Shown piece after piece: positions 34,557 to 51,708 of a DNA stretch of 64,000 bases. The notes below the pieces were generated by a model, which made no database searches, was not told the DNA's origin, and worked only from the letters and a program-made list of their open reading frames with translations. The stretch comes from Defluviimonas sp. SAOS-178_SWC (lineage in GTDB: Bacteria; Pseudomonadota; Alphaproteobacteria; Rhodobacterales; Rhodobacteraceae): assembly GCF_039830135.1 (NCBI RefSeq), contig NZ_CP156081.1, positions 1,660,001 to 1,724,000 of the forward strand. Reading direction: 5' to 3'. The stretch's first letter is position 1. Each line of letters starts with the position of its first letter. Both the position numbers and the translations under genes were made by a program.

Positions 34557-34631
34557 GGGTGATTAGCTCAGTGGTAGAGCGCTTCGTTCACATCGAAGAT
34601 GTCGGGGGTTCAAATCCCTCATCACCCACCA
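34557..34631 (+). tRNA. tRNA-Val(CAC), intact copy at attL
   Basis: A 75-nt cloverleaf. The acceptor stem is GGGTGAT/ATCACCC, the D-arm is GCTCAGTGGTAGAGC, the anticodon arm CTTCG-TTCACAT-CGAAG has anticodon CAC, the T-arm holds GTTCAAAT, and CCA is encoded. Its last 25 bases are duplicated at 50265-50289, marking it as the integration target of the element. Confidence 0.95.
34607..34631. repeat. attL core
   Basis: A 25-bp sequence starting GGTTCAAATCCC and ending CACCCACCA, inside the intact tRNA-Val. It is identical to attR at 50265-50289; the bases on either side differ. Confidence 0.9.
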
Positions 34632-34945
34632 CGATTTTTCCCTTTAAAATCAAGCACTTACGGGATCGGACGGTCCAGAATGTATGGTAACTACCCCCAA
34701 TAATGTATGGTAACTCGGGGAGGGTAGGGGACTGGATTCGGTATGGGGCGGGTTTTGGGGGTTTGGGTGGGCCGCGTTAGCGGCTGGGCAAAAAGAAGGG
34801 GCGTTCGCGTGAGGTACCACGAACGCCCCAAGTGCGGCGGGCCAGAGTTCCGCCGATTGATACGCGGCCCGGCTAAAGACCCCTCTTTGAAGCCGGACCG
34901 CGCTGGGTGGGGGTGGGCCACTCATCCGCGCCCGCACCCAATTCT
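34632..34945. other. Non-coding left end of the element, with hairpins
   Basis: 314 bp from attL to the tape-measure gene. Besides the arm repeats it holds a GTTA-loop hairpin, GCCGC-GTTA-GCGGC (34771-34784), and a 10-bp stem GGGGCGTTCG/CGAACGCCCC (34798-34829). These could stop minus-strand transcripts from the tape-measure gene. No gene seen. Confidence 0.6.
34682..34715. repeat. Left arm-type repeats of the element
   Basis: Two copies of GTATGGTAACT start at 34682 and 34705, 23 bp apart, with ACCCCC between them. The same spacing and orientation occur at 50165-50198. They are probably integrase or excisionase arm sites. Confidence 0.65.
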
Positions 34946-37537
34946 TTAACCGCGTGGGTTCAGCGTTCCGCCGTACCGGGCAGCATGTGCGATTTGCTCC
35001 TGAACCATCGCCCGCAATTGATCCACCACGGCCTTGGCCACCTGCCCGCCGTGTTTCTGGTCTGCGGCGGGGTCCCCGCTGGAGCCCTCAACCGTGACGT
35101 TCGCTGTAATCGGTCCCATGTTGATGACGGGCGCGGCATTTCCGTTTGCCGCGTCTCCGCCGTTCATTTCAACCGGGACCTTGCGGCCCTTGCTAAGCGG
35201 AATGACCGCTTCATTCGGGTGCAAGATGGAAGGAATGCCGGACGTGTTAGCGGTGCCTTGGGCGAAGTGTGGGGCGTGCGAAAACGCCGCCATAGTTGCG
35301 TGAGCTGACGACATTGCCGGGCGATCACTGAAACCGCCTTCCGAATGGGCCGGGAAGAGGAAATTCAGGATACCACCTCCGACACCAGAACCGGAGCCAT
35401 CAAACCCAAAGAGTTGGAGGAACGCCTTGGTCGTTTGATCGGCTAGGACGGATGCTAGTGCGCTGACCATCGAATCCGCGAACGACTTCGCGCCAAACTC
35501 GCCCGTTTTGAATAGCTCTTCGAAGCTGTTTTTGAGCCCGTCAATCGCCGTGCTTTTGATCGTGTTTGCCGCTTCCTGATACGTGGGCACGGACTCTAGA
35601 AACGCCTTCACAGGATCGTTTGCCGCTGCCGCTTCCCGGTTCGCGCGCGTCTGGGCGTCGATTTGGCGGAGTATCGCCATAGTCGCGGCGTCTACCTGCC
35701 CGCCCATCAGGACCGCCGCTTCGCCGTACAGTTTCGAGGCCTCGGCAGATTGGAACGTTGAGTCCGCGATTGCCTTGTGTGCCAGCTCCTGAGCCCGGAG
35801 ATTCTGCAACGTGTCCTTCAAGGACTCGTTGTATTTTTGGAGGTCAGATTGACGGCCTTTGCCGCCCCCGGATCGGTCCGACTTCATCGAGTCCGAAAGC
35901 TTCTTTTGAAGCGCCGCGCCTTCTTTGGCCAATTCGTTCAACCGGGCGATATCGCCCGCGCGCTTTGCCACCTCGTCAAGGTTGAGGTTGCCCGACTTCG
36001 CCCCGGCTGCGATGAAGTCATCAAGTTGAACCTGACGATCCGCAGCCGCAGCGGCATAGCCCCCGCCGATCTGGAGTCGTAGGGATGCGTTCGCGCGCTC
36101 CATGTCTGAAATCTGTTGCCCGATAGAGCGCTGCAAAGCCCCGAAAGCCGAAGGCATGTTCGCGACCGTGGCCAGCAAGCGCGCGGCTTCATCTGCCCCG
36201 GTCCCGATCTCGATTGCGAGGGCATTTGCCGCCTTGCTTGACCGGTCCGTGGCGGTGGACGTGTCGTCTTGGCTTCGCGCTAGCCGAATGCTCGCGTCTT
36301 CCGCTTCAATGATCTGGGCGAGCATATCCTTGGCGGAGTCGGAGCCATTGTCGAAGCCCCCCGAAACCTCTTCAAAGCGTTGGCGGAGGCGGGTCAAGGC
36401 GGCGCTCTGGTCTTCAAACGTCGTCGCGTTCTTAACCTGAGTCATTAGGTCTTCGATCTGGCGGACGGCGTCGTATGTGCCCCCCGTGATCTCTTTCAGC
36501 CCGTCGCTTGCGGTTGTAAGCCACCCGTCAGGAATCGAGTCCTGTATGCTCTGGACCATGTCCCGGTTTGTGCCCATGGCCCGGAATTTCTCGACCCGCA
36601 CAAGCCGGTCTAGATGCTTATCCAATTCGGCGTTCAACCGCCCGTAACCGTCCACCATGTCACCGATACCATTCCGGGCATTGGTGGAAGCGGAGCGAAG
36701 CGCCGAAATATGGTTGTTCGCATCGCCTAGCGCGTCGGCAAACGATTTGACTTCATCGTCTGCCCCGGTGAGGGCCTGAAACAGGGCCGCGCCAAGGGCG
36801 ATCACGCCAATGGTCACCAGCGAAACTGGATTGATCATGCTCATGAAGCCCGCGCTAAGCGTGCGGAGAATTGCCGCGCGCGTCCCGAGACCGTTGAGCA
36901 TCTGACTGACCTGCGTGCCCTGTTGAAGGGCCAATTGGAGCGGGTTTTGCCCCGCTGCCATCATTACAGCGATATCGTTAAATTGGCTGGCCATGTATGC
37001 CGTTTGAAAGCCGGAAACGCGGGCATTTGCGCCCATGCCCTGCATAGCTTTTCCCGTCGAGACGGCGGCAAGCTGAGTGCGTTTCACCTCGTCTGCAAGG
37101 TCTTTGAAGTCGGCCCGGGCCGAGCGGATGTCGGTCGTGTTCGTGGCGGTTGCCAATCGTCCCTGAAGGCGTGTTAGGGCCCCTTCAAGCTCTGCTAGAC
37201 CGCTATTGTCGCCGATCATGGCCATGGACGCGGACAGGCGCGAAACGTCATTCTGCGACGTCCTGAGGGCCGTTTGAGATGCGATCTGCAAGCGCTTGAA
37301 CATATCCGCCGCGTGTTGCTGCGAACGGGATAGCCCATCGGTGGCGTTGGTGGTCGCCTTAATTCCCGTGAGGTCGGGCTTGGGGGACTTGGACAGGGCG
37401 GTAAATGCACCAGCGGAGTCGCGTTCAAGGTCTTTTACGGCGCGCTTGATCGCGGCAATCGCGGACGTGAATTCTTTCGAGCCCTGCCGCGCGGCAGAGG
37501 CATCGATTTTTAGTCGAATATCGTGAATTTCGGACAT
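34946..37537 (-). CDS. Phage tail tape-measure-like protein
   Basis: An 863-residue protein. After a helical, Ala/Ser/Thr-rich N-terminal third, residues of about 180-262 hold the typical tape-measure segment: FQTAYMASQFNDIAVMMAAG, then a hydrophobic stretch SMINPVSLVTIGVIALGAAL. The C-terminus has the common tail-protein signature HPNEAVIPLSKGRKVPVEM preceded by Gly/Ala/His-rich loops. In phages it sets tail length and can enter the host membrane. I used the ATG at 37537, which begins MSEIHDIRLKIDA. No neighbouring tail, capsid or packaging genes are present, so it is an orphan. Confidence 0.8.
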   Translation of the reverse strand: MSEIHDIRLKIDASAARQGSKEFTSAIAAIKRAVKDLERDSAGAFTALSKSPKPDLTGIKATTNATDGLSRSQQHAADMFKRLQIASQTALRTSQNDVSRLSASMAMIGDNSGLAELEGALTRLQGRLATATNTTDIRSARADFKDLADEVKRTQLAAVSTGKAMQGMGANARVSGFQTAYMASQFNDIAVMMAAGQNPLQLALQQGTQVSQMLNGLGTRAAILRTLSAGFMSMINPVSLVTIGVIALGAALFQALTGADDEVKSFADALGDANNHISALRSASTNARNGIGDMVDGYGRLNAELDKHLDRLVRVEKFRAMGTNRDMVQSIQDSIPDGWLTTASDGLKEITGGTYDAVRQIEDLMTQVKNATTFEDQSAALTRLRQRFEEVSGGFDNGSDSAKDMLAQIIEAEDASIRLARSQDDTSTATDRSSKAANALAIEIGTGADEAARLLATVANMPSAFGALQRSIGQQISDMERANASLRLQIGGGYAAAAADRQVQLDDFIAAGAKSGNLNLDEVAKRAGDIARLNELAKEGAALQKKLSDSMKSDRSGGGKGRQSDLQKYNESLKDTLQNLRAQELAHKAIADSTFQSAEASKLYGEAAVLMGGQVDAATMAILRQIDAQTRANREAAAANDPVKAFLESVPTYQEAANTIKSTAIDGLKNSFEELFKTGEFGAKSFADSMVSALASVLADQTTKAFLQLFGFDGSGSGVGGGILNFLFPAHSEGGFSDRPAMSSAHATMAAFSHAPHFAQGTANTSGIPSILHPNEAVIPLSKGRKVPVEMNGGDAANGNAAPVINMGPITANVTVEGSSGDPAADQKHGGQVAKAVVDQLRAMVQEQIAHAARYGGTLNPRG

Positions 37538-38271
37538 GGTAACAGACGAAGATTGCGCGGTCGGTCGCGCGGAGTGGGTCAAAATGTCGGGTAGGGCCAG
37601 CGGGGGAAAGGCGCGGGCGGTGGGGGAAAAGGGACAAAAACCTCCGCCCGCGCCTATCTTCGGCTGGTAAGCCCACATTACCACGACACGGGCCGGGCGC
37701 AAAATTTCTCCGTCAAAATGGGTCACGTTCGGTGTGTAACTTTTTTTCCAGATTCTGCCGGAAAAATGTGGGCGGATACTGTTGGAATGGGTGGGGGTGG
37801 GTCTGCCCGGGCGGGTCCCCGGGTGCATTTTTTGGCCACTAGAACCGGCGGTTGCTCCGGTATTTCGACGCAGTGACTGAGCGCCTTTCAGGTCCCCGGG
37901 GTATATACCGTCATGGAGCCCCCCGAGGCCCTTTTTACGGCGTCTGAGGCCCCTAACGGGGCACGCCCTACCCATCCGCAACACCCTTTCAGCGCCCATC
38001 TGACGCAGTCTGACGCCACACCAGAAAGACGCTGAATCCGTCCCCGCTACGCGGGCCACCATCACCAATCCACCAACTGAATCCCCGGACCGGCACCACA
38101 CCAAGACGCGCCCCGGGCCCGTCCTGACACAGGAAAAACGATGCGTCAGGCGATGTGGTAAGACGGGCGCAGCGGACAGGCTGAGACGATAAAGGCCGCG
38201 TTAGCGGCGCGGCCCGGGTGGTGGTTTGGTGGATTAGGCTAAGCCGCTGACGCGGCGGCGGGCGCAGCGGC
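37538..38271. other. 734-bp non-coding region of the element
   Basis: I see no convincing gene here. It contains several G/C-rich hairpins: CCCGGG-N6-CCCGGG followed by six T's (37806-37833), GCCCC-TAAC-GGGGC (37949-37962) and GCCGC-GTTA-GCGGC (38195-38208). It lies downstream of the recombinase gene and upstream of the tape-measure gene, so it probably holds a terminator for the former and the promoter of the latter. An open frame runs through part of it but lacks domain resemblance. Confidence 0.55.
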
Positions 38272-38964
38272 CTAGCTGGCCCTGTACACGCCTGCCTTCG
38301 TCAGCATCTGGCGCACGCTGTTGGCGTTGTAGACGGTGCCATTAGACGTGTGGCCAGCCTCTGCCAGCTCTGCCGCGATCTGGCGCAGGCTGCGGCGTGT
38401 GCCGGTCTTCGGGCTCTTCCTGTACAGGCGCTTTGCCAGCTCCACCGCGTCAGCGGGGACAGGCTTACGGCCCTCGACACGGCGGCCCAGCTCGGCACTG
38501 CGGCGGTCCCTAGCCCCTTTGAGCTTGGCCACGGTCTGTTGCCTATCGAAGGCGCTGACGGCCCCTAGGATGGTGCGTACTAGGGTGGTGGTGGGCGTAT
38601 CGTGTAGGAAGTAATCCGGCGCGGTGGTCGGTATCAGATCGACTCCGCGTTCCTTAAGCATGCGGTGGCCCAGCTCTTGCACGATAGCGTCACGCGCGAA
38701 CCGGTCCGGGGATTCAACAAGGATGGTGCGCGTGCCATTTGATAAGACCGCGTCTAGCAGGGCCAGCATGCCCGGGCGGGTGTCGATAGGGTCCGCGCCC
38801 GAAACGGCAGCATCATAAAAGCTTCCGACGATCTCGAATCCGCGCGCCCGGGCGAAGGCTTCGATAGCGCGGAGCTGGCGCTTATCGGAGTCCTTGTCCG
38901 CGCCCACGTTTGTAGCCGATGAGGTCCGCAAATACGCGAAAGCGGGAATCTTCTTAGAGGCCAT
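38272..38964 (-). CDS. Serine recombinase (resolvase/invertase family)
   Basis: A 230-residue site-specific recombinase. The N-terminal catalytic domain has the YLRTS motif with probable nucleophile S15 and the ESPDRFARD Arg motif near residues 84-92, then helix E, and a C-terminal helix-turn-helix (SLRQIAAELAEAGHTSNGTV). It could invert or resolve DNA within the element or act as a plasmid-type resolvase. A strong palindrome lies 35 bp upstream of its start. It is distinct from the element's tyrosine integrase. Confidence 0.88.
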   Translation of the reverse strand: MASKKIPAFAYLRTSSATNVGADKDSDKRQLRAIEAFARARGFEIVGSFYDAAVSGADPIDTRPGMLALLDAVLSNGTRTILVESPDRFARDAIVQELGHRMLKERGVDLIPTTAPDYFLHDTPTTTLVRTILGAVSAFDRQQTVAKLKGARDRRSAELGRRVEGRKPVPADAVELAKRLYRKSPKTGTRRSLRQIAAELAEAGHTSNGTVYNANSVRQMLTKAGVYRAS

Positions 38965-39320
38965 TTCTACACCCTTTCAATTACTTAGTGCCGTCTCACG
39001 TTATCTATCTGAGGGTAGATAACGATTTGTTCAAGGGGGAATCGGTGAAAAAACGAGTCGAATCAGCGATTTGAGTCCGCGTTAGCGGGCTTTTCCGAGT
39101 CTATTTGTGTGATTATTTAGCGTTACAGTGTAACATTTCGTGAGTTGCTTTCCGCTCGGTCGGGGGCCGCCGGATGCATGTTTTCTGCCGTTGCCGCTAT
39201 TATGCCTCACGCGCGCAGTCGTGCAGATACTATCATCCAAGTCCGGAAGAACGTTTGTTGAACAAGCGTCTGGTGACCGGTATAGTTGCTGCAACGATAG
39301 GTTCAGTGAATTCGAGCAGC
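38965..39320. promoter_or_regulatory. Divergent control region with two palindromes
   Basis: Between the recombinase and nuclease-like genes lie CGTTATCTATC-TGAG-GGTAGATAACG (38999-39024, ten of eleven pairs), CCGC-GTTA-GCGG followed by GCTTTT (39077-39094), and GTTACA-G-TGTAAC (39122-39134). The first and third look like repressor operators or a recombinase site; the second is terminator-like. AT content is higher than in the flanks. Confidence 0.6.
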
Positions 39321-40442
39321 ATGACAATCATTACTCCGCAAGTCCTAGAGGATGTTTCATCTTTCAACGAAGCCGAGGTTCGCTTCCATGTGCTCGATCC
39401 ACTACTACGAAAATTGGGCTACCCCGGTGGAGACGATGTTTATCTTAAGCTCGAAGAGAAGCTCGACTATCCGTATTTTTTCATCGGGCACACAAGCAAG
39501 AAGAAGGACCTACCGCTAGGGTTTCCGGATTATCGGGCTGGTCTCAAAGGTAGGCGTGGCAGCTTTGTCGTCGAAGCGAAAGCGGCGACCGTGGGTCTTA
39601 CAGAGAAAGATGTCGAACAAGCGCATTCGTACGCCGCGCACTCTCAGGTAGGGGCAAACTACTTTGTTTTAAGTGACGGGGCACAAGTAGCGGTCTATGA
39701 AACCCTATCAGGAGGTCAGGCAACGCCAATCATCCTTCTTAAAATAGATGAACTGGATGCGAGGTTTCACGAGCTGGAGAACGTCCTTTCGCCTGCCAAC
39801 CTCGAAAAGAACTGCCGGGTGAATTACGACAAGGGTCTAAAACTTTGTGATGGGTTGGGCTCGTCGGTTAAAATTCATTCCGGCGAGTACGCAATGAAGG
39901 ATTGGGCGTTTCGGATACTCATCGACGAAAAGGACTGTACTGAGGCATTGAAAGCATCGGTGCCACAGATCGCCGAAGTGGACGGCCAGCTTGCAATGAT
40001 GCAAAAGGAGTTTCAACTTCGGGTTGGAGAAGGGTTGTCAAAACGCGAGGCTGACGGGAGGATTGTTGCGGAAGTAAGCTTTGTAGGAGTAACAAAAAAT
40101 AATCTCGCCGCAATGAAGTTACTCGGAATTGATCGGATGGCGTTCGCCACAAATACCCAGTTCATTTCAACCTCCCCTGATGATCCTACGATTTTTGAGT
40201 CCACCGCAGACTTCTCATTGGAAAAGGGCACTATGGTTCCCCCACTCTTTGGGGACGCCGTGCCAATGGACACAAACGTCAAGGGCGATATGTTTATCAC
40301 GGCACGGATGCACAAAGATGGCGACGCGATACTCGGGGAATATGCCGCGGTGGCCGATTATTGGCTCGACGTGCCGATGGTTGACAATATGAAGATGGAG
40401 TTAGATTTTATCGGAACCTTCGTGCTTCGTTTGAGTGAATAG
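39321..40442 (+). CDS. PD-(D/E)XK nuclease-like protein (HsdR N-terminal-type)
   Basis: A 373-residue protein of low GC. Residues 16-130 resemble the N-terminal nuclease domain of type I restriction HsdR: EAEVRFHVLDPLLRKLGYPG, then D70 in FPDYRAG, E85-x-K87 in VVEAKA, and a QAHSYAAHSQ motif. The C-terminal half (about 200 residues) is unassigned. There are no HsdM, HsdS or helicase parts. It overlaps the ribosome site of the next gene, so both are translated together. Start is uncertain: no ribosome site precedes the ATG at 39321. Possible anti-phage effector, by inference only. Confidence 0.75.
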   Translation: MTIITPQVLEDVSSFNEAEVRFHVLDPLLRKLGYPGGDDVYLKLEEKLDYPYFFIGHTSKKKDLPLGFPDYRAGLKGRRGSFVVEAKAATVGLTEKDVEQAHSYAAHSQVGANYFVLSDGAQVAVYETLSGGQATPIILLKIDELDARFHELENVLSPANLEKNCRVNYDKGLKLCDGLGSSVKIHSGEYAMKDWAFRILIDEKDCTEALKASVPQIAEVDGQLAMMQKEFQLRVGEGLSKREADGRIVAEVSFVGVTKNNLAAMKLLGIDRMAFATNTQFISTSPDDPTIFESTADFSLEKGTMVPPLFGDAVPMDTNVKGDMFITARMHKDGDAILGEYAAVADYWLDVPMVDNMKMELDFIGTFVLRLSE

Positions 40443-40452
40443 GAGCATTCAG

Positions 40453-41112
40453 ATGGTCCGGGAAATACTTCTCTCGGCAAGCTGTGCTGCACTCCTAGGC
40501 ACCGCAGCCGTCGCTGGGCCTTGCTTTGAAGCTGTCGAAGCTATGAACTTCGCGTTGCAGGGTCTACCTGACGAAGGCGTGACAGCGATTTCACTCAAGG
40601 CGGAAGGGGAAACTCGCTACGTCCTATTTGTTGCCTTTGAAGCGAAGCGAGACGGAGGCCCGAATAATAATACAGCTTCTTGGCGGCTCATCGAACGCCA
40701 GAAAGAGAGCCTGACTTATTGTCTGGCAGGGGCGGGTAGATCATTGGAAGTCCTTGAAAGCCTCCACGCCATACCGGGATTTGATGCGGAATTTGGTCTG
40801 CCGGGTTCGTCCAAACGTCGCTGCAATGACGAGGCAGACGGACCGCTAGGCAGTGTCGCCGTGCGGGCGTGGGCGAACAAGGAACTTGGGCCTAGCATGG
40901 TGCAGGTTTTCGGCGAACCGTTCAGAGGAGATGCTTTCACGGTCCTACTTGCCGAAGAGGGCGTCCAAGGTAGTTATCCTTGGATACTCCTTCAAACCCG
41001 AGAGACACGAAACTGCTATTACGCGCGAGGTGACGATTCTTGGTTCGCTACTAACTTCAAGATGCGGGCGGACTTGAAACAGAACCCGGATACGTTGTCC
41101 CCGTTGGAGTAG
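40453..41112 (+). CDS. Exported protein of unknown function
   Basis: A 219-residue protein with a clear signal peptide (ILLSASCAALLGTAAVAG; cleavage expected near residue 22). The mature part has Cys residues at roughly regular intervals that could form disulphides, and no recognisable domain. AGGAG seven bases before the ATG at 40453 overlaps the end of the nuclease-like gene, so the two form an operon. GC content is low like its partner. Function unknown. Confidence 0.6.
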   Translation: MVREILLSASCAALLGTAAVAGPCFEAVEAMNFALQGLPDEGVTAISLKAEGETRYVLFVAFEAKRDGGPNNNTASWRLIERQKESLTYCLAGAGRSLEVLESLHAIPGFDAEFGLPGSSKRRCNDEADGPLGSVAVRAWANKELGPSMVQVFGEPFRGDAFTVLLAEEGVQGSYPWILLQTRETRNCYYARGDDSWFATNFKMRADLKQNPDTLSPLE

Positions 41113-41206
41113 GTGACGAACTTCGATACACTTGAATGAATTTGGCGAACTGCCGGTTCGTTGGGGCAGTCAAAGGCTTATCTGGGCGTGCGCATGCGCG
41201 AAAACC

Positions 41207-41495
41207 CCTTATTTATAAGGCCGGGCGGACAGGGCGGACGGGCGGATTTCGAAATCCGCCCCAAAAACCCCTTATTTATAAGGCCGGGCGGACAGGGCGG
41301 ACAGGGCGGACTGAAATTATATAGTTCTCCTAAACGAAGGTAACGGCCTCTTCACGCGAGTATCCCCGCGCAAAAAACTATTTGCCTGTTTTCGTGTCCG
41401 CCCTGTCCGCCCTGTCCGCCCGACCCTTATTTATAAGGCTGAAACCGGGCGGATTTCGAAATCCGCCCGTCCGCCCTTGTCCGCCCTGTCCGCCC
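41207..41495. other. Putative replication origin: inverted iteron arrays
   Basis: Two arms in opposite orientation surround an AT-richer core (41313-41394). The left arm has GGGCGGAC-type iterons at 41223, 41232, 41240, 41286, 41295 and 41304. The right arm has the reverse complement at 41395, 41404, 41413, 41469, 41478 and 41487. Each arm has a 22-bp perfect palindrome, GGGCGGATTTC plus its complement (41240-41261; 41447-41468). CCTTATTTATAAGG occurs at 41207, 41270 and 41425. It lies beside the 3' end of the primase/helicase gene. SaPI-type satellites have comparable origins. Confidence 0.65.
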
Positions 41496-41506
41496 GAAAA
41501 GAGGAA

Positions 41507-41526
41507 GGGGGCGCTAACGCGCCCCC
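41507..41526 (-). terminator. Hairpin overlapping the primase/helicase stop codon
   Basis: GGGGGCGC-TAAC-GCGCCCCC, a perfect 8-bp stem whose loop contains part of the stop codon at 41514-41516 (read on the minus strand as GTTA). It probably ends transcription before the origin region. Confidence 0.6.
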
Positions 41527-44500: not shown

Positions 44501-44558
44501 CGTCATTAATTGGCGTCTCGATAAGATCGGCGCTGTTAAACTTTTCAGAAGTATTCAT
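41514..44558 (-). CDS. Primase/zinc-finger/helicase replication protein (DUF927-type)
   Basis: A 1014-residue protein. Residues 1 to about 290 look like a primase-polymerase domain with the acidic pair D108/D110 in LTLDIDSGD. Residues 345-383 hold a zinc-finger-like set (C346, H350/H352, C363, C378, H380, C383). From about 430 there is a DUF927-like AAA helicase with Walker A GESSKGKT (K653) and LALDELGAM as Walker B. It should unwind and prime the element's DNA and may recognise the iterons at 41207-41495. Start ATG 44558. A small gene (44604-44753) precedes it in the same direction. Confidence 0.82.
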   Translation of the reverse strand: MNTSEKFNSADLIETPINDATVTGEESADWRTLLDRQMTFLLPVNRNKDAEQKTWKNATARFEDWLKGDLTMHVERPRKGYFPMVFGASAGTKRAANAMKSVECLTLDIDSGDSYGKALGRVAGLGLACIGYTSFNNGTERSYLDRDAVMKGRDTDPTDAEIREFMTASGKYTPEHIATVEIEAQAEHTEDGVKIVLRHAPLEKWRLIFPLAETVTITALAPRHKAALDVFKRRMRGLAQLIGVRADESCFDVSRAFYLPSHPKGSEWALDVIRGRGLTFEELPEASGKNAFEIAGGDAGKRVEAPSGASLKAWATEYARRFEIETLLEGSAYDRGRGMGVLVVECPFDHAHGNAGDADDSACHVRNGDGDTGFSWACKHDSCREKDRLDMLAEALAAGWFDESDIRDDAYLVPLSDQELAEIEAAKVAPFEPVADWLPNAYKMKAGTIYLADEEGDVPLCQAFDVVGRASNLAGDAGAGRIIHFENENGAPVEITLSMADLIRDGGGGVLEVLADAGMRLYVGGKKSRDAVLNLFRQIAPKRQIATVPRPGWVRDRGGNIAGYLCPTGEYIAVAGAIPYRLSTAATVKDRQPMGTLAGWQAAADAAFAPIGDAAPNFFWIVGLSAAFAGPLLSLAGMDACGFNFSGESSKGKTLALILGTTAWTTPRDKKGVLFTMNATSNALEDLAAIGSESFLALDELGAMQRPQDLASILFGLSTGAGKSRKAGRGAGLADDAEFQSFAVMTNERSLRALITGAGGDYKTGISARFPDLDVTAGARVSADVIKRMESAKSNFGHAGPEFVRWLIRENWHVRGHDLRKRIDEAATALAGDVNPAQARAAKVFGLVQIAGELACEAGILSDSAKVKAAVVTAWETFKASDEGKATEGETSLLEGFRSWLMRAIGREVIATEDREDPRFRDVVGWYTDTQFILDWHSITDVKRLGLNGTRAGLVKALETCGALEKSGKNNAHNKLPPEVGGGEVRNIRLHRDKLGLPPDRRQNAYSEGGKGAR

Positions 44559-44603
44559 CTCGTCCGTTTTTCCATTGTGCGGCGGGCACTTGCCCGCCTT
44601 GCC

Positions 44604-44753
44604 TCAACTCGGCCCCTCACAAATTTGGGCCAACTCTTCAGTTACATCTTTGATCGCTTGCCAAGGGGCCGGGTCCTGTATCGTCAACTCGCCAAGGCGG
44701 GCGTCTTCGGAATCCAGCGCCACAGGCACGGCGGTCATAGCGGTTACGTTCAT
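44604..44753 (-). CDS. Small protein upstream of the replication gene
   Basis: A 49-residue acidic protein (MNVTAMTAVPVALDSEDARL onward). AAGGAG seven bases before the ATG at 44753 supports translation. It ends 45 bp before the primase/helicase start, so it is probably in the same operon. No domain recognised; it could be an anti-repressor or accessory factor. Confidence 0.45.
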   Translation of the reverse strand: MNVTAMTAVPVALDSEDARLGELTIQDPAPWQAIKDVTEELAQICEGPS

Positions 44754-44839
44754 GTCAGACTCCTTCACTTTGATCCTCGCCGGATCATATGAAGCGTAAG
44801 CTTCGGGAGTCAAGTAACTGTTTTCATTACAGAATAGTC

Positions 44840-44904
44840 CGCTTAAAGCGCACTTTCTGGGGTGGGATTTGCTTCAAGCGGAGTTTGTTTTCCGCTTGAA
44901 GCGG
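44840..44904. promoter_or_regulatory. Three palindromic boxes upstream of the replication operon
   Basis: The perfect 13-bp palindrome CCGCTTGAAGCGG (44892-44904) is accompanied by CGCTTAAAGCG (44840-44850) and GCTTCAAGCGG (44871-44881). The last two boxes also form a 12-bp stem with loop GTTTGTTT. A separate GTTAC-N5-GTAAC lies at 44912-44926. This looks like the operator region for a satellite repressor. Confidence 0.55.
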
Positions 44905-44933
44905 TATGCGCGTTACCGGCTGTAACAAAGCCC

Positions 44934-45323
44934 TCAGGCCAGCCGGGTGACGGAGTTAACCCCGCCGCCGTTCGAGTAAATCAGCGGATCGAATTGGAGC
45001 GCCGTTGCGCCCAGAAGCGCCAGCGCATTTGTGGCGTCTTGCATGTCGCCACCCTCGGCCTTCACCAGCTTGGCGGTATCGTGGAGACTGACTGCGAACG
45101 CTTCCATTCGCCCGCCCGCATCAAGGATTTCGGTCAAGATCATGTCCGCGTAACGGACCGCGTCCGCGTACTCTGTGGGCTCCCAGTAGATATAGCCATA
45201 CAAGCTAGATTCAATCATCCGCTCGCGCCAGTCCTTCGGCGCTCCATTAATTCCAAGCGCTTCAAGCGATTTCGAGTAAAGTTTGCCTTTTTCGACGCGG
45301 GAAAGTAGGTCAGCATAAGTCAT
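44934..45323 (-). CDS. Hypothetical element protein
   Basis: A 129-residue soluble protein, mostly helical by composition, with a conserved-looking WREE/WEP region (DWRERMIESSLYGYIYWEP). AGGAC precedes the ATG. It is upstream of the operator boxes and may be an independent unit. Not recognised. Confidence 0.5.
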   Translation of the reverse strand: MTYADLLSRVEKGKLYSKSLEALGINGAPKDWRERMIESSLYGYIYWEPTEYADAVRYADMILTEILDAGGRMEAFAVSLHDTAKLVKAEGGDMQDATNALALLGATALQFDPLIYSNGGGVNSVTRLA

Positions 45324-45453
45324 TGTCGTTAGTCCTGTATATCAATTGGTAAATGTTGGTGAGTGGAGTTAAAAAGATGGGCGGCGGGCCGGAGATTTTC
45401 CCGCCGCCCGGTCGCGCCTCGCCCCCTCCTAGAACGCGGCGCGACTATCTGTT

Positions 45454-45654
45454 TTAGCGCTTGATGAGATCGGGAAACTCTTCGTCGAGCGTCTCGCGAA
45501 TGTAATTTTCCAGTCCGGCGAGATCGTGGAAAGGATCGTAATTCCGCGACCGATGTTTAGCGATGTGCTCGGCCCATAGTTCGGCCCTCCGCATTTGGCG
45601 GGCTTGGATGCGTTCCATACGGGTGGGCTGTGGTGGCGCTTTAGTCTTCGTCAT
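45454..45654 (-). CDS. Small basic hypothetical protein
   Basis: A 66-residue protein rich in Arg and Gln in its first half (RMERIQARQMRRAELWAEH) with an acidic C-terminus. It overlaps the preceding 78-residue gene by 14 bp, so it belongs to the same operon of small genes. No family recognised. Confidence 0.45.
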   Translation of the reverse strand: MTKTKAPPQPTRMERIQARQMRRAELWAEHIAKHRSRNYDPFHDLAGLENYIRETLDEEFPDLIKR

Positions 45655-45877
45655 CTATAATACCTTTCTTTATCTTCATGGCCTCGATCTCTTCGGCGAG
45701 TCGGCGCTTTTCCGCTTCAAATTCGGCGTCTGTCCAGTTATTTCTTATTTCCCACGCCTTTTTCCACTTTTCGGCCTCACCCTTCCGTTTTTGCGAATAA
45801 GGCGGGATTGGCCCGTCCGACAGGTCATAGGCGCCGTGTAGATTTTTCAACGTCGCCAGATTTCCCCCTAAGCTCAT
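45641..45877 (-). CDS. Small helical hypothetical protein
   Basis: A 78-residue protein ending in a charged helix (FEAEKRRLAEEIEAMKIKKG) that could form a coiled coil. It overlaps the genes on both sides, by four bases upstream and 14 downstream. No family recognised. Confidence 0.45.
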   Translation of the reverse strand: MSLGGNLATLKNLHGAYDLSDGPIPPYSQKRKGEAEKWKKAWEIRNNWTDAEFEAEKRRLAEEIEAMKIKKGIIDDED

Positions 45878-46569
45878 GCTGCGTCATCCTGTTGCGATGC
45901 GAGCCAACGCAAATGCGCGGTCTTCTTATCGTCATCGCGCATCGGGTGGGCCTCATATTCTTTACGGAGCTTGCCCCATTTCTGATACGGAATAATCGCA
46001 GTTACATCGCCCGCCCAAGGCCGGAATAGGTAACTGCCGTCAGTCTGTTTTTCAAATAGCTCGGCAAACGTTTTTCTGTTCTTGAATAGCTGAAATTCAA
46101 GCTCATCCTCGATTGTACCGCGCTCTTTCCGCCGTTTCTCGGCACTTTCAAAAAGTGCGACTAGCGAGTCGTATTGCGGGCCGCTGATTATCGTTCCAGT
46201 TGGCGTGTGGACTCGCGTCCCGTCTGCGTTTCTTTTGAAACGCAAGCGCGGGTGCGAAAGTGTATCGGTTGCTTCTGTCGCCAGATCGCCAAAAGCTACG
46301 GCCTTGACCGGCTCGGCCTCGGGCCGATTATTCAGCGCTGATTCAATTGCTGCCAGCGCCTTGGACGAAACGATTACATCGGGCTGCGGCTTGAACGAGA
46401 AATGACCAATTGCGGAGTCCGGAAGTTTGATCGGCGGGCCGTTTGGTGATTCAACCAATAGCGATTTAGCGTCCGGAAGGTGTTTAAAGAGGCCAAGCAC
46501 GTTTCCAGATTTTACAATTTCGGGAAATTCTCGACGCAGAAAATTTGTGATATCTCCAACCGTTCTCAT
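45874..46569 (-). CDS. Hypothetical element protein
   Basis: A 231-residue soluble protein (MRTVGDITNFLRREFPEIVK at the start; tail HLRWLASQQDDAA). It has no recognisable domain. It is the first gene of an overlapping run with the two small ORFs downstream and may be co-transcribed with the HTH gene pair upstream. Confidence 0.5.
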   Translation of the reverse strand: MRTVGDITNFLRREFPEIVKSGNVLGLFKHLPDAKSLLVESPNGPPIKLPDSAIGHFSFKPQPDVIVSSKALAAIESALNNRPEAEPVKAVAFGDLATEATDTLSHPRLRFKRNADGTRVHTPTGTIISGPQYDSLVALFESAEKRRKERGTIEDELEFQLFKNRKTFAELFEKQTDGSYLFRPWAGDVTAIIPYQKWGKLRKEYEAHPMRDDDKKTAHLRWLASQQDDAA

Positions 46570-46611
46570 GGTGAAAAATGTCCTTACGTTTTTATGGGGC
46601 TGGTGGGGGCG

Positions 46612-46634
46612 GCGGAAGCGCGGGGCGCTTCCGC
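46612..46634 (-). terminator. Hairpin between element operons
   Basis: A perfect 9-bp stem, GCGGAAGCG with CGCTTCCGC, and a CGGGG loop. It lies 20 bp after the stop of the 164-residue gene on the minus strand. There is no immediate T-run, so it may attenuate rather than fully terminate. Confidence 0.5.
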
Positions 46635-46653
46635 GTGTGGATTGATATGCCGA

Positions 46654-47148
46654 TCACCGGGCGAGTCCTTCACGTCTCGCCGCTGCGATACGCATAGCGG
46701 GCGTGGGCTGACTGAGCACCCGCGCGAGGGCAGCACCTTCCTCTGAAGGTGTCAGCGGTCGTGACGTCTGCGCCTCGCCCCCGGCCTTCCCGTGGCGGCG
46801 GGCTTCGTTTAGTGCATTGACCGCGCCCATAAAGCCGGGGCGGTCGGTAGGTTCCTGTTCCGCCGCGAGCGCGGCCTCATACGCCGCTGTAACTTCGCGG
46901 TCCCGGAGGGCCTGCGCCACAGGAGCGAGGCCCTGAGCTTCCGTCTTCCACCGGTCGGAAAGAGCATCCTCGGTCAAAACAGCGAGTCTAACGGACGGGA
47001 GCGAAATGAGCTGGTCCCGGTCGGCTACGGTAACCCCGAATTCGGTCTCAATCCTCGCCGACACCTCGGCCACCGTAGCCTCCCAACGGGAGGCTAGTCT
47101 TGGATCGGATGAGACGAGTGCGCGGAATTGATCGTAAGAGTCAGACAT
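46654..47148 (-). CDS. Hypothetical element protein, partner of the HTH gene
   Basis: A 164-residue, Ala/Glu/Arg-rich and largely helical protein (FRALVSSDPRLASRWEATV). The conserved-looking C-terminus, AMRIAAARREGLAR, could be a binding tail. Its start abuts the stop of the HTH-like gene, so translation is coupled. Not recognised; a morphogenesis-interfering or DNA-packaging accessory role is possible but unsupported. Confidence 0.5.
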   Translation of the reverse strand: MSDSYDQFRALVSSDPRLASRWEATVAEVSARIETEFGVTVADRDQLISLPSVRLAVLTEDALSDRWKTEAQGLAPVAQALRDREVTAAYEAALAAEQEPTDRPGFMGAVNALNEARRHGKAGGEAQTSRPLTPSEEGAALARVLSQPTPAMRIAAARREGLAR

Positions 47149-47661
47149 TTATACTACCTCATTGTAAATATGTGTCGCGTTAGCGATTGAAAAAGCGGCG
47201 GCGAAATCTGCCCAATCCTCGGGCATTTCGCGGAAGTCATTGAGAATGGCGGCGCGATAGACGGTCGGATTACAAACGAGCTGCCATTGGAGCGCATCGA
47301 GGAACCCAGAGAACCCACCCGCCGGGAAGGCCCTTCCGAGTCCTTCGCCAAAGCGCGTGCGAATGTCCGCCATACGATCCTTGGCCCTTTCATCCATCCA
47401 CCGATGGAGCGCTTTACCATTCCGGACGGCCTCGGCAGCCGGGCCAACATAATAAGGATCACCGTCATTGGACGCGGTCGCGATCAAATCTGGCACCGCC
47501 CGGCGAAGGCGCGGCGAGGACATGAGGGGCAAGACGAGAACGAGATTAAAGATTTTCTTCGGACCGTCCCGACGACACGGGATTCCGGCCATTTTCTGCG
47601 AAACGGACGGCGGCGTTAAACCTGTCGATTCAATGATATCTCGTGTGGAAACTTCTAACAT
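47149..47661 (-). CDS. Winged-HTH-like element regulator
   Basis: A 170-residue protein. Residues 1-45 look like a DNA-binding helix-turn-helix with a wing: STRDIIESTGLTPPSVSQKM, then PCRRDGPKKIFNLVLVL. This arrangement resembles excisionase or terminase-small-subunit (Nu1-like) domains. The rest is unassigned. I chose the ATG at 47661; the open frame continues into a repeat region. Inverted repeats TTGACTTT/AAAGTCAA at 47680-47724 lie just upstream and could be its control site. Confidence 0.55.
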   Translation of the reverse strand: MLEVSTRDIIESTGLTPPSVSQKMAGIPCRRDGPKKIFNLVLVLPLMSSPRLRRAVPDLIATASNDGDPYYVGPAAEAVRNGKALHRWMDERAKDRMADIRTRFGEGLGRAFPAGGFSGFLDALQWQLVCNPTVYRAAILNDFREMPEDWADFAAAFSIANATHIYNEVV

Positions 47662-48047
47662 ATGGGCCTGTATTTTTGCTTGACTTTCTGAGAATAAGAT
47701 GCACCAAAACGAATCAAAAGTCAACGAATCGCGAAAAACGGTGCACGAATTTAAAGGTATCGGGCGAATGGTTTTATGGAATCCGACCGAAGTTAAAGAA
47801 ACCGCAGCCCGGTAAAGCATTCGCCGGAAAGTCATTCGCCGGAAAGTCATTCGCGCTAACGCGCGCAATCATTCGCCCTAACGCGCGCGATCATTTGCCC
47901 CATAAGCAAAAAGGCCCGCTAACGCGGGCAGTAGCTCAAGGCTGTGACACCCACCCGGCATTCAGGGGCACTGGTCACCAGAGCGCTTGAAAGCTGGTCG
48001 TCATGCGCTACTGTACGATGCGCAACCATCGGCTCACATTGGAAAAC
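47662..48047. other. Regulatory and repeat-rich intergenic region
   Basis: This gap holds the inverted repeat TTGACTTT (47680-47687) and AAAGTCAA (47717-47724). It also holds two 15-bp tandem repeats ATTCGCCGGAAAGTC (47819-47833; 47834-47848), then two 22-bp near-repeats containing CTAACGCGCGC (47849-47870; 47871-47892), and a GCCCGC-TAAC-GCGGGC hairpin (47914-47929). The divergent genes on either side probably have their promoters here. Confidence 0.6.
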
Positions 48048-48596
48048 ATGGAACTTCTCACAAACGTACCGCTAGCCCAGCTTATTGCGTACACATGCCT
48101 AACCCTCACCTCAGTGATCGTTGCCAGCGTTTCGCTGAACTTCTCATATCGGCAAAGCTTCGGGTGGAAGCCAATACTATTGGTATGGACGCACGGTCTC
48201 GCGAGCAGCGCAGTGAAGCGCCCATCTGGTGGTGACAGGGGAGTTGACGCTATTGTGCATTTCGAAGTTTGGAACCGTCACTCATACCCCATTACAATCG
48301 ACGGCGCTGAGGTCAAGTTCAACCAAGTCAAGATAGATGATGCTGTGCATCGAATGGCAGGCACCTCCCGCTGGTCCGTTGATAGAAATGGCAAATGTAG
48401 CTACCACGAACGCATCGCAGTGAAGGGGGGAGACCGCTGCGAATTTGAGCTGCGTGTGTCGATGGCGGAGCAGAGCCTAGACGCAATTGACGACTGGATA
48501 GACGTCAAGATTCGCTACTTCGATCCTCGCCGGGAAAGGCACAAATCCATTGCAACAAAGTATCGCTATCATTTTAGGGTTGGATTGCAGTACTAA
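48048..48596 (+). CDS. Single-pass membrane protein, element cargo
   Basis: A 182-residue protein. Residues of about 8-32 form one hydrophobic segment (LIAYTCLTLTSVIVASVSLN); the remaining 150 residues are a soluble domain with beta-strand-like alternation (VHFEVWNRHSYPITIDGAEV). The ATG at 48048 is used although the frame is open from 48003. It is convergent with the integrase gene, and its GC content is lower than that of its neighbours. No family recognised. Confidence 0.5.
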   Translation: MELLTNVPLAQLIAYTCLTLTSVIVASVSLNFSYRQSFGWKPILLVWTHGLASSAVKRPSGGDRGVDAIVHFEVWNRHSYPITIDGAEVKFNQVKIDDAVHRMAGTSRWSVDRNGKCSYHERIAVKGGDRCEFELRVSMAEQSLDAIDDWIDVKIRYFDPRRERHKSIATKYRYHFRVGLQY

Positions 48597-48610
48597 ACCA
48601 CTTCCATTCA

Positions 48611-50143
48611 CTACCAATACGTAATAGCGTCCAGCGCCTTCCGCATCATTTCCAGCCCGTGCGGAGTATCGCCCAGCCCGGTCTTATAGTGACGCAGTTT
48701 CCCTTGGCCAGACACGTGGCCAATGATGCCCCTAATGATATCGTCCGACATGCCGTCTTGCCGCGTAAGGCGCTCCACCAGCGTATCTTTGGTGCTGTAG
48801 AGCACGTGCCTATCATTGGCGAAGCCCGCCCCCCGTATGAGCTTCGTAAATTGGTCTGACATGGTCGTCGCGATGGAAGCGGGCACGCCTTCGAAGCCCC
48901 CAGCGGCGAGGAAGTCGGGAAGATCGGCGATTGCCCGCGCAAGCGGTATCTTCCGCCCCCGGGTCTTCGTTTCGCGGATGGTAAGAACGCCTTTCTTCAC
49001 GTCACCATCGCGGAGCTTGAAAATTTCGGCGGGGCGCATACCGGAGTACAGGGCCACACGGAACGCCATGATGAAGGCGGCGCGGCGCTCCGGCGTCAGC
49101 CGGGAATTGGAGTCCGGGGCCCATTCGTCGCTGACAAGGCCCCACACTGCCTTTAGTTCGTCATCGTCAAAGGCTTGCCAGCGGCGATCCTCAACCGTTG
49201 TCGAGACGGTCGGCATATTGAGGGCCGGGAAGATGAGACCTTCATACGCTTCCTTTTCCGCCGCCGCCCATCGCCACAACGTCTTGAAAGAGTCGAAGTG
49301 TTTGGCGACGGTTTGCGGGCTGACTCCATCAGTCACCAGCCGGTCGCGGTGGCGCTGTAGAATTGGCTTTGTGTAGTGGGTCAACTGGTGATTGCCCTCC
49401 GCCGCCGTCAGTCGCCGAATGAAGGCCTTGTAACTCCGCTGGGTGTTCGCCCGCTTGCCCTCTGAATAGCTGTCCATAAGCTCCGTGATCCGCAAGGAAG
49501 CGTCCCCCGCCGTCGCGGGGGTGACTTCGCTCAACCGGGCGTCCAGTGCGGTCTTAAACGCATCAAACATAACACCCGCCACCGGGTCCGCCGGGCGCGT
49601 CGGGTGCATGATATCGGCAAGGGCATTACCCACAGGATCGTCAGCGGGCAGGCGGTCCAGATACGACCGATCACCGAACGCAAACGCGGCGAACGTCGCC
49701 AATAGGTCGCGCTCGTCGGACAGGCCCCGGACTCGCTTCATCTTGTCTTCTGTCTGCCGCCACAGGTCGGCGGCAGCGGGTGCTTGGGCAGCGGCAGCTA
49801 GGGCGATGCCCCGGGCTTGTTCCGCGTCTTCAGGGGCCACCACAGCGCCCGGGGGGAGGGTGGCGGCTAGGACGGCGCCAAGCTGGACTCCCTTCGCCGT
49901 CTCTTCCGCCTGACGGCGGCGAGTCCAAGCTTCCTGCGCCTCACCTGTGGCAAGCTGGGCGATCATGTCGTCATGTTCGCGCGTCAAGGACCGGCACTTG
50001 TCCAGAGCCCCGAGATAATCGGACCCAAGCGAGAAATCCCAGACCGCTTTTCCGACGATTTCTTGAAGGGGCCGGGGGACCTTCCGTTGATACTTCCAGC
50101 GCCCGGATTTCGTCTTGTGGAAGTGCGGAATTGCCTTGGTCAT
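48611..50143 (-). CDS. int: Tyrosine integrase of the element
   Basis: A 510-residue recombinase for the tRNA-Val att site. The N-terminus (HFHKTKSGRWKYQRKVPRPL) resembles DUF6538-type integrases; a central SAM-like DNA-binding domain (LMDSYSEGKRANTQRSYKAF) and the catalytic domain follow. The first catalytic Arg is R370 in YSGMRPAEI, then H476 and nucleophile Y486 in HYKTG. The usual H-x-x-R box is replaced by Y449-S-T-K452. I chose the ATG at 50143 (another at 50155 is possible); upstream sequence is att DNA. It lies 121 bp from attR. Confidence 0.88.
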   Translation of the reverse strand: MTKAIPHFHKTKSGRWKYQRKVPRPLQEIVGKAVWDFSLGSDYLGALDKCRSLTREHDDMIAQLATGEAQEAWTRRRQAEETAKGVQLGAVLAATLPPGAVVAPEDAEQARGIALAAAAQAPAAADLWRQTEDKMKRVRGLSDERDLLATFAAFAFGDRSYLDRLPADDPVGNALADIMHPTRPADPVAGVMFDAFKTALDARLSEVTPATAGDASLRITELMDSYSEGKRANTQRSYKAFIRRLTAAEGNHQLTHYTKPILQRHRDRLVTDGVSPQTVAKHFDSFKTLWRWAAAEKEAYEGLIFPALNMPTVSTTVEDRRWQAFDDDELKAVWGLVSDEWAPDSNSRLTPERRAAFIMAFRVALYSGMRPAEIFKLRDGDVKKGVLTIRETKTRGRKIPLARAIADLPDFLAAGGFEGVPASIATTMSDQFTKLIRGAGFANDRHVLYSTKDTLVERLTRQDGMSDDIIRGIIGHVSGQGKLRHYKTGLGDTPHGLEMMRKALDAITYW

Positions 50144-50164
50144 GGTGGGCCTCATCGGGAAAAA

Positions 50165-50198
50165 GTATGGTAACTTACCCCCGAAAAGTATGGTAATT
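50165..50198. repeat. Right arm-type repeats of the element
   Basis: GTATGGTAACT at 50165 and GTATGGTAATT at 50188, 23 bp apart with ACCCCC between, mirror the spacing at the left end. They overlap the integrase promoter region. Confidence 0.65.
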
Positions 50199-50264
50199 TG
50201 GCCCATTTGGAAAGAGGAAAAGTGTAAAACGCCTTGTTTATAAGGGAAAAAGATGAAAATGGAT

Positions 50265-50289
50265 GGTTCAAATCCCTCATCACCCACCA
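50265..50289. repeat. attR core
   Basis: An exact copy of the last 25 bases of tRNA-Val(CAC), without the rest of the tRNA. A CCTTGTTTATAAGG sequence similar to the origin-region motif lies just inside, at 50232-50245. Confidence 0.9.
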
Positions 50290-51329: not shown

Positions 51330-51405
<76 letters not shown>

Positions 51406-51542
51406 TATTCCCATTGGATTTTCCACAGATTTGCGAAGTGTTCCGCAGTTCATTCCCCAGCTGCGACCGGCAATCAAAAACCTTGCGCAAATCGTCCGGC
51501 TGCGCTTGACGGGGGGGGCGGCGATGCCTATTACACGCTCCA

Positions 51543-51673
51543 CGCTCGGGCGGCGATCCGGGCGGGTGGACACGCGGTTGTAGCTCAGTCGGTTAGAGTA
51601 CCGGCCTGTCACGCCGGGGGTCGCGGGTTCGAGCCCCGTCAACCGCGCCACCACCCCCGGATCGCCCGAGCGC
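51543..51673 (+). repeat. Complementary flanks that bracket the first tRNA-Asp
   Basis: CGCTCGGG, CGATCCGGG and GGTGG in the 5' flank pair in order with the 3' flank 51651-51672, leaving two small bulges on the 5' side (about 22 pairs). The tRNA would sit at the end of a long stem, as for processing stems of rRNA and tRNA precursors. Confidence 0.6.
51574..51650 (+). tRNA. tRNA-Asp(GTC), first copy
   Basis: A 77-nt cloverleaf. The anticodon arm CCGGC-CTGTCAC-GCCGG gives anticodon GTC and the 3' end is encoded. It is flanked by complementary sequences (51543-51569 and 51651-51673). Confidence 0.95.
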
Positions 51674-51708
51674 GTCCCGCAAGGGACAGCCACAAAAAGG
51701 CACCATGC

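Follow-up and report, generated by a model that had tools for sequence, protein, structure and literature searches.

A tRNA-Val Element of Defluviimonas with a Predicted Scaffold Mimic and a Lone Tape-Measure Protein: a Probable Satellite of CbK-like Siphophages

Introduction

The question raised by this locus is what an element with one recognised tail gene and a replication module of its own is doing inside a bacterial tRNA gene. The element spans 15.66 kb inside tRNA-Val(CAC) of Defluviimonas sp. SAOS-178_SWC and lies within a 64-kb stretch of genomic DNA, analysed here as a whole and termed the window. The reading put forward, with a probability of roughly three in four, is that it is a satellite of CbK-like siphophages, which would be packaged in particles of helper proteins with the aid of a scaffold mimic (C1) and a shortened tape-measure protein (TMP). 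The marks of a satellite found in the window are an own integration and replication module, an incomplete set of virion genes, and genes and motifs that match those of the likely helper. Of the phages named below, MD18 and DSS3P8 are given as CbK-like siphophages in excerpts of PMC7643831 and PMC9127768. Related loci and genomes are cited by L and G numbers.

Proteins shared with CbK-like phages

A comparison of 242 element proteins with phage RcXuper showed matches for the primase, the TMP, the terminase small subunit (TerS), Neck1, the C-terminus of the scaffold and an integrase; the last is generic (27–30% identity for the integrases of two members). The same 242 proteins match Pkon1, RC1 and EE36phi1 (compared over bases 1–50,000 only) in the TMP alone. 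C1 and C2 of L073 show no phage match.

The window primase matches 66 phage records, 38 of them from Caulobacter, plus MD18, V10, DSS3P8, RcXuper and others. Its N-terminal domain (amino acid positions 17–410) is common to CbK-like phages and the C-terminal part is a DUF927 helicase-like sequence. The primase matches RcXuper in all 16 elements of the first survey that carry it, the window included, and in L124 and L125 as well. Identities of the N-domain with CbK-like phages are 32% for the window and up to 83% for relatives. In the primase tree, satellite and phage domains interleave, and well-supported branches force at least three changes. RcXuper groups with L078 (97/94) and DSS3P8 with L067 (85/85, not strong); the window primase sits together with L066 and L068 on a long branch, and the placement of these two next to CcrPW is insecure. 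The interleaving fits repeated exchange between elements that may have shared cells.

The C-terminal 416 amino acids of the L081 TMP match 61 phage records, 38 from Caulobacter, a genus make-up near that of the primase matches. At the top are six phages, the RcXuper/DSS3P8 group. Identities are 69.9% over 415 aa for RcXuper, 63.8% for V10 and DSS3P8, 71.5% over 64% for MD18, 57% for MAL1 and 43.9% for RpAliso.

Two relatives carry a further protein of this kind, which the first reading of the window had not brought to light. L069 has a TerS homologue (L069:14873-15409, PHROG_51, 7.4e-11) that shares 34% identity over 175 aa with RcXuper TerS gp206; the TMP of L069 consists of the C-half only. 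Short proteins with an N-terminal motif like that of the L069 TerS are found in L071, L072, L079, L179 and L180. In L074 a Neck1/tail-completion protein (L074:18551-19027, PHROG_169) with 62.6% identity to RcXuper follows the TMP. The annotation of RcXuper itself (OP186293; L139-L141) lists an immunity repressor, a pair of tyrosine integrases and numerous tRNA genes. Among these are tRNA genes for Val, Phe, Thr, Pro and Leu, and most satellite att sites lie in tRNA genes for these same amino acids.

C1, a predicted scaffold mimic

The sequence-only first reading overlooked the likely helper group as well as the open reading frame (ORF) at 46654-47148, C1, which appears to be a capsid-assembly protein disguised as a short ORF. 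RcXuper gp47 is a PHROG_206 head scaffolding protein (3.3e-30) whose gene lies just upstream of the major capsid gene. The gp47 C-terminus is MTPQQRINYARKHGLV, with close versions in MD18, RpAliso and DSS3P8. XM05 is intermediate; phiCbK, Lacusarx and the Mesorhizobium phage have no close version. The window C1 ends with the like sequence PTPAMRIAAARREGLAR. In the 242-protein comparison the last 17 residues of the L070 C1 match the gp47 C-terminus, and the L184 C1 matches the same site with 52% identity over 25 aa.

A position-specific scoring matrix made from 12 C1 C-termini places gp47 first of 223 predicted RcXuper genes, with a score of 24.0 (next −1.1), and first of 1316 six-frame RcXuper ORFs (next 5.5). 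All 12 held-out C1 sequences score 6.7–21.1, above 198 other proteins (maximum 3.3), in a test that is not independent, as the profile that found these sequences contained the motif columns. The structure model of C1 is all-helical with a pLDDT of 85. In excerpts of PMC5644958, CpmB and the 80alpha scaffold are described as having a common C-terminal helix-and-hook that binds coat protein. C1 is predicted to be an alternative scaffold that mimics the C-terminus of the helper scaffold.

The tape-measure protein

The window TMP is recognised by PF06791 (1.2e-14) and by six PHROG TMP families at 1.2e-20 or better. In all 11 satellite TMPs compared (for L073, the initial part of a broken gene) the N-terminal residues align with the beginning of the RcXuper TMP (44–62 aligned, 54–71% identity; 61% over 62 residues in the window). 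In their C-terminal 420 residues all 11 match RcXuper from about position 1475 on, with 35–71% identity over the aligned part. The middle shows nothing better than E = 1e-5 against RcXuper in the 11 members. Satellite TMPs are 863–1093 aa long, compared with 1900 in RcXuper, 1825 in DSS3P8 and 1441–2218 in seven IMG/VR relatives; two further IMG/VR matches, L092 and L093, are TMPs of 789 aa. The TMP is established as the ruler of tail length. The ends of the satellite TMP would dock and the middle would form the ruler.

The dN/dS values (ratio of nonsynonymous to synonymous substitution rates) of the TMP in three pairs of relatives are 0.14, 0.10 and 0.21, and by thirds of the protein 0.08–0.26. 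The TMP is under purifying selection in the relatives compared. Thus the one orphan tail gene of the original prediction is a TMP and not debris. A tree of the TMP has two well-supported inner branches out of 16 and resolves no more than "mixed".

A small ORF of 49–79 aa follows the TMP in relatives and is absent or degenerate in the window. The L068 copy shows no family match, and an XkdX identity for a relative's small protein was rejected as too weak (E = 0.03). A similar ORF (L186:12332-12553; 64% over 53 aa to the L068 copy) is found in an element without a TMP, and because of this the small ORF may have a role apart from the TMP.

In L073, a metagenome-assembled sequence, the TMP is split into two frames (L073:16851-20071), by assembly error or decay. 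The Defluviimonas genome contains a second TMP sequence, a C-terminal fragment 81% identical to the window TMP (C2:2918093-2918317; L063), close to a gene for a large serine recombinase and to transposase-like genes in repeated copies, by eye of IS66 type. L063 is likely a decayed second element.

Probable replication origin and a shared palindrome

The inverted iteron array of the window lies downstream of the primase, has 31-nt arms that are 100% complementary, and is likely the replication origin. The 500 bp after the primase contain 48 repeated 10-mers, compared with 17 or fewer in other sampled stretches of the locus, and in 9 of 16 loci this segment is the richest in such repeats. No inverted iteron pair is found downstream of the RcXuper primase gene, and the satellite origin is therefore not copied from an obvious phage origin.

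The palindrome GCTTSAAGC is the core common to repeats first noticed in L068 and in RcXuper. RcXuper has 45 sites, compared with 1.6 expected from block shuffles; 36 of the 45 are intergenic by our gene calls, where intergenic DNA makes up 15.5%, and 28 are located beyond 133 kb. There are two sites in Pkon1, one each in RC1 and the EE36phi1 part, and one in the window flanks. Across 16 elements, the 900 bp upstream of the primase contain 28 sites and the remaining sequence 22; the upstream sites are present in nine elements (the window and eight relatives). The 64-kb window has four sites (0.61 expected), of which one, at 45259-45267, is within a gene and two are in the gap before the primase. 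The simplest reading of the shared palindrome is a candidate common control signal.

A recurrent family in Rhodobacteraceae

A search of 84,980 species genomes with the primase showed 15 loci, all in Rhodobacteraceae or Rhodobacterales by title or genus; for several genomes this is a genus placement that we assume. Carrier strains besides the Defluviimonas host include Sinirhodobacter ferrireducens, Gemmobacter aquatilis and Pseudotabrizicola alkalilacus. The TMP is present in seven (L068, L070, L073, L074, L075, L078 and, as the C-half, L069) and was not found in five (L066, L071, L072, L077, L079). In L067, L076 and L080 the contig ends near the primase and presence of the TMP cannot be judged. 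Searches with the TMP added a second copy in G066, loci in G016, G477 and G323, a remnant in G370, and two IMG/VR contigs, L081 and L082. The L081 contig ends in tRNA-Val and is probably chromosomal; the remainder of the L082 contig is without annotation. With the window counted and the G370 remnant left out, 12 of the 14 TMP loci have a tRNA gene (Val, Phe, Thr or Pro) no more than 2.2 kb away, the exceptions being L069 and L082. No tRNA gene was present in six regions that carry other TMPs and were regarded as prophages without annotation of the neighbouring genes. L073, L074 and L078 are placed at the tRNA-Val(CAC) that is also the site in the window, and share with it the adjoining pair of host genes (HU-like and Lon, named by eye).

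The C1 profile matched 15 of 394 family genomes, and 12 further loci found by C1 were all examined. A primase relative, whole or partial, is found in 10 of the 12, the exceptions being L179 (cut by a contig end) and L185, a locus that may be a wreck and whose C1 lies inside a longer odd frame. Among 5.8 billion proteins, with 7996 candidates scored, C1 gave three matches, two labelled hypothetical and one unnamed. The window contains the set that defines the family: C1 with the scaffold motif, a phage-related primase, a resolvase and a length of 13-16 kb. The suggestion that the element is satellite-like, with its own replication module and maybe of a new alphaproteobacterial type, is supported by this recurrent family. 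One member without a TMP, L071, carries a DRT2-type defence reverse transcriptase downstream of the resolvase (L071:9967-11445; PADLOC, 6.6e-129).

Direct repeats of 15–50 bp are present in 10 of 16 tRNA-element pairs; five of the six pairs without a repeat are at contig ends, L079 being the other. All eight additional pairs show repeats of 14–45 bp. The att-to-att length is 12.9–16.1 kb in 18 elements, and 14.8–16.1 kb in the eight that bear a TMP. Because the lengths are narrow though the cargo differs, a head-size limit is suggested.

Insertion site and gene content

The 25-bp repeat sequences at the two ends of the element are identical and 15,658 bp apart (Table 1); the chance expectation for a 25-mer repeat in 17 kb is about 1e-7 by an arithmetic estimate. 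The GC content is 0.51-0.63 in the element and mostly 0.63-0.72 on either side. A 334-nt sequence of the joined flanks was used to search 21 other genomes of the genus for an empty site. The insert-free junction is contiguous in seven, with the best identity in G012 (79%) and 72-74% in G002, G016, G001, G006, G017 and G020, the G020 alignment beginning at position 28. In thirteen genomes the match is to the tRNA part or the right flank by itself, which is uninformative; the query has no match in G004. The insertion in tRNA-Val(CAC) with an exact 25-bp repeat, as first proposed, is borne out by the repeats, the drop in GC and these empty sites.

Table 1. Features of the element and its insertion site (window positions).
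Feature	Positions	Strand	Evidence or remark
tRNA-Val(CAC), integration site	34557..34631	+	ARAGORN
attL, last 25 bp of tRNA-Val(CAC)	34607-34631		Direct repeat
Left copy, TATGGTAACT-type repeat pair, just inside attL	34679..34718		Likely integrase arm site
TMP, 863 aa	34946..37537	-	PF06791 and PHROG TMP families
Small serine recombinase/resolvase, 230 aa	38272..38964	-	PF00239, 1e-21
Cargo, HsdR_N-like protein, 373 aa	39321..40442	+	PF13588, 4.6e-7 on longer ORF reading
Cargo protein with signal-peptide-like start (by eye)	40465..41112	+	ORF, no family match
Inverted iterons (GGGCGGACAGGGCGGAC) and CCTTATAAATAAGG dyads flanking AT-rich core	41201..41497		Likely origin
Primase-helicase, 1014 aa	41514..44558	-	PF06048 DUF927 and PHROG primase matches
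Two GCTTSAAGC palindromes in gap upstream of primase	44871..44902		Likely regulatory site
Four small genes between primase and C1	44934-45323, 45454-45654, 45641-45877, 45874-46569	-	ORFs
C1, 164 aa, predicted alternative scaffold	46654..47148	-	Scaffold-type C-terminus, all-helical model
C2, 170 aa, helix-turn-helix-like N-terminus (by eye)	47149..47661	-	Family alignment, translation
Cargo gene between C2 and integrase	48003..48596	+	ORF
Tyrosine integrase, 510 aa	48611..50143	-	PHROG_1 integrase, 4.2e-22
Right copy, TATGGTAACT-type repeat, just inside attR	50162..50201		Probable role by placement
attR, exact 25-bp copy of tRNA 3' end	50265..50289	+	Direct repeat; empty site in relatives

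The TATGGTAACT-type repeats (family D8) inside the two att sites are imperfect, with 78% identity between left and right copies, and are likely integrase arm sites by their usual placement. Downstream of the insert, tRNA-Val(TAC) and two tRNA-Asp genes are found at 51330-51785; the L079 element adjoins the tRNA-Val(TAC) of the same locus.

The three cargo genes are on the plus strand, and the integrase, C2, C1, primase, recombinase and TMP genes on the minus strand. The integrase also matches DUF6538 (4.6e-8), its Phage_integrase score is under the cut-off, and its start is likely 50143, outside the att repeat. The HsdR_N-like protein shows weak PADLOC matches and is a possible nuclease or defence gene. 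C2 shows no PHROG match and is likely a regulator. No recognised family was found for the four small genes in domain and PHROG searches, or for the cargo gene next to the integrase. Family matches and the inverted iteron array confirm the integrase, primase/helicase and probable origin of the original prediction. Its statement that no capsid, portal or terminase gene is recognisable also holds: none of these families, nor any lysis family, was found among the searched window ORFs at E = 1e-3 or better. The sole structural-looking match besides the TMP is that of C1 to a minor tail family (E = 0.059).

Discussion

The satellite reading can be set out as a cycle. Infection by a helper, sensed perhaps via the shared palindromes upstream of the primase, would lead to excision by the tyrosine integrase. 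The primase-helicase would replicate the element at the inverted iterons, and the serine recombinase would resolve multimers. C1 would compete with the helper scaffold for coat protein via the shared C-terminal helix and redirect assembly to a small head fitting about 15.5 kb. The helper-matching ends of the satellite TMP would dock at the two tail ends, and the shorter middle would give shorter chimeric tails. Particles would then carry the element to a new cell, with integration in a tRNA gene. A wider claim, to which we lean slightly, is that a new family re-tailors both ends of the particle: C1 would shrink a large prolate head to one for about 15.5 kb, in one branch (which includes the window element) a TMP with ends copied from the helper and a reduced middle would shorten the tail, the elements would listen to the helper via palindromes also present in its intergenic DNA, and this would be the second independent chimeric-tail lineage after PLE.

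Several observations weigh against this reading. The window copy is distant from RcXuper, with 32% identity in the primase N-domain and, in the C-terminal stretch of the TMP, 35% over 208 aa and 68% over 60 aa. C1 is present in 12 of the 15 primase loci and missing in L069, L071 and L072, where three short proteins score 12.9–13.8 for the C1 motif, higher than all others in a background set of 293 proteins. Two of 14 C1 sequences (L079, L125) lack the motif at their extreme C-terminus, and a fold search with C1 gave no significant PDB match. The TMP is found in none of the 12 further C1 loci, three of which are cut by contig ends (L179, L182, L188); because of this it is confined to one branch and is a feature of a minority of the family. 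A weak stretch in the TMP middle, at least 29 aa long from RcXuper position 313, is found in 8 of 11 members. TMP alignments made without composition correction run longer, at 20–39% identity, and "poorly matched" is therefore safer for the middle than "unrelated"; the uncorrected summed-piece comparison left out L092, L093, L089 (cut by a contig end) and L086 (match same as L085). The origin-like array is not above local background in 7 of 16 loci. GCTTSAAGC was chosen after its sighting in both a relative and RcXuper, and it is missing upstream of the primase in 7 of 16 elements (L067, L069, L071, L072, L076, L077, L079). No packaging signal was identified in the element, and no viral contig bearing the element primase was found. 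The RcXuper scaffold has no match in the host genome, so a helper would come from outside; a resident prophage as helper was rejected on this ground, the other TMP match in the genome being a fragment only.

The alternative that survives best, still an unlikely one, is a chromosomal anti-phage island moved by other means, in which the TMP and C1 are dominant-negative decoys of CbK-like assembly. Two of the three shared protein parts come from assembly proteins, inhibition that targets tails is known from Tai and Rta (excerpts of PMC11364771 and PMC12987554), and the DRT2 gene of L071 is a defence gene. However, the origin-like array, primase, integrase and resolvase indicate replication and transfer, the element length range is narrow, and one relative has a homologue of the helper TerS. 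The TMP is also constrained in all thirds in the compared pairs and retains both ends.

Less probable again is a satellite of other helpers, for example temperate siphophages like Paracoccus phage Pkon1. They are brought in by the TMP middle, a point against CbK-like helpers, which shows 37-45% identity to Pkon1 over about 230-250 aa in six members (39% in the window); with composition correction the best single alignment of the window TMP is to Pkon1, in this middle part. But primase, scaffold, TerS and neck show no match to Pkon1 or RC1, and the TMP ends, primase and C1 all indicate CbK-like phages. Gene transfer agents (GTAs) were rejected as helpers. Proteins of many genomes, often frames of about 220 aa, match TMP profile columns 890-956 with E of about 1e-4 to 1e-3, which was judged a generic TMP C-terminal motif. 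Most of these are presumably tape measures of GTAs, which are short; the capacity of a GTA head is only about 4 kb.

A decayed prophage with a single surviving tail gene might explain the one recognised virion gene, the low GC, the cargo and the decayed TMP fragment elsewhere in the genome, but it was rejected as very improbable because comparable gene orders, with a TMP close to a tRNA gene, are seen in different genera and at different tRNA genes and the TMP dN/dS is 0.10-0.21; nor is any other virion family found in the window at E = 1e-3.

On the wider claim, the docking parts (ends) and the ruler (middle) could be read from the TMP sequence itself. If the satellite reading is true, the family would be an independent case of a tail-altering satellite for which candidate helpers have already been isolated on hosts in culture: Rhodobacter capsulatus for RcXuper, Ruegeria pomeroyi for DSS3P8 and RpAliso, and Phaeobacter inhibens for MD18. 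Three points become open to test with it: control of tail length by a satellite, the sufficiency of a C-terminal motif common to both scaffolds for the redirection of a large prolate head, and the division of the TMP into docking and measuring segments.

Comparison with known satellites

The closest likeness is to the phage-inducible chromosomal island-like elements (PLEs) of Vibrio cholerae with helper ICP1. As was shown in 2026 (excerpts of PMC12987554), the PLE TMP replaces that of the helper: it enters the virion, excludes the ICP1 TMP and shortens the tail by about 10 nm, giving shorter chimeric tails, and its deletion cuts transduction by 96-99.9%. A like replacement is predicted from sequence here. 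PLEs also have a lytic helper phage and an own scaffold, TcaP, that makes small capsids (excerpts of PMC12987554 and PMC10945586). PLEs differ in encoding a tail chaperone and, in some cases, a baseplate hub; their TcaP acts as an external scaffold, and the PLE11 TMP has 20% identity to that of ICP1, whereas the window element has a TMP with helper-like ends. This TMP is of siphophage type, no chaperone was recognised in the window element, its scaffold protein would act by C-terminal mimicry, its site is a tRNA gene and its hosts are Rhodobacteraceae. The PLEs are probably unrelated to the window element, for which the helper relatives found are CbK-like phages.

SaPI1, a phage-inducible chromosomal island (PICI), is about 15 kb, a size similar to that of the window element, and to our knowledge has no TMP. 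PICI markers are the AlpA/Stl regulators and a TerS or Ppi packaging gene. The AlpA/Stl, TerS and Ppi families show no window match; C2 and the small genes could be diverged versions. A TerS, as in PICIs, is found in one relative, but the likely helper is another one and the window has no PICI-type family match. Capsid-forming PICIs (cfPICIs), as their name and the title of a 2023 paper by Alqurainy in the reference list of PMC10803314 indicate, form their own capsids and take phage tails. In contrast, the window element has no recognised capsid gene, and the own capsid and packaging genes that mark cfPICIs were not found. Some cfPICIs carry putative tmp genes (PMC12987554, Extended Data Fig. 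10, from an excerpt), and CpmB of SaPI1 shares a C-terminal motif with the scaffold of helper 80alpha (excerpts of PMC5644958), as is predicted for C1.

The likely helper is not P2-like, and none of the P4-type markers matched in the window. These markers are Psu, Sid, Delta and Ash; by them, and by the capsid and packaging genes of cfPICIs, the element belongs to neither group. P4-like satellites do resemble the window element in a tRNA-type att site, a primase-helicase with an iteron origin, and a scaffold that sets capsid size. The phage-inducible chromosomal minimalist islands (PICMIs) of Vibrionaceae are likewise small marine satellites of virulent phages, but they are described in excerpts of PMC10803314 as having no capsid-remodelling genes, whereas the window element encodes a TMP and a predicted scaffold mimic. 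Literature searches, mostly of open-access titles and abstract starts, found no description of satellites of CbK-like phages. The element appears to belong to a separate satellite family, whose member in the window joins a predicted scaffold mimic with a lone TMP.

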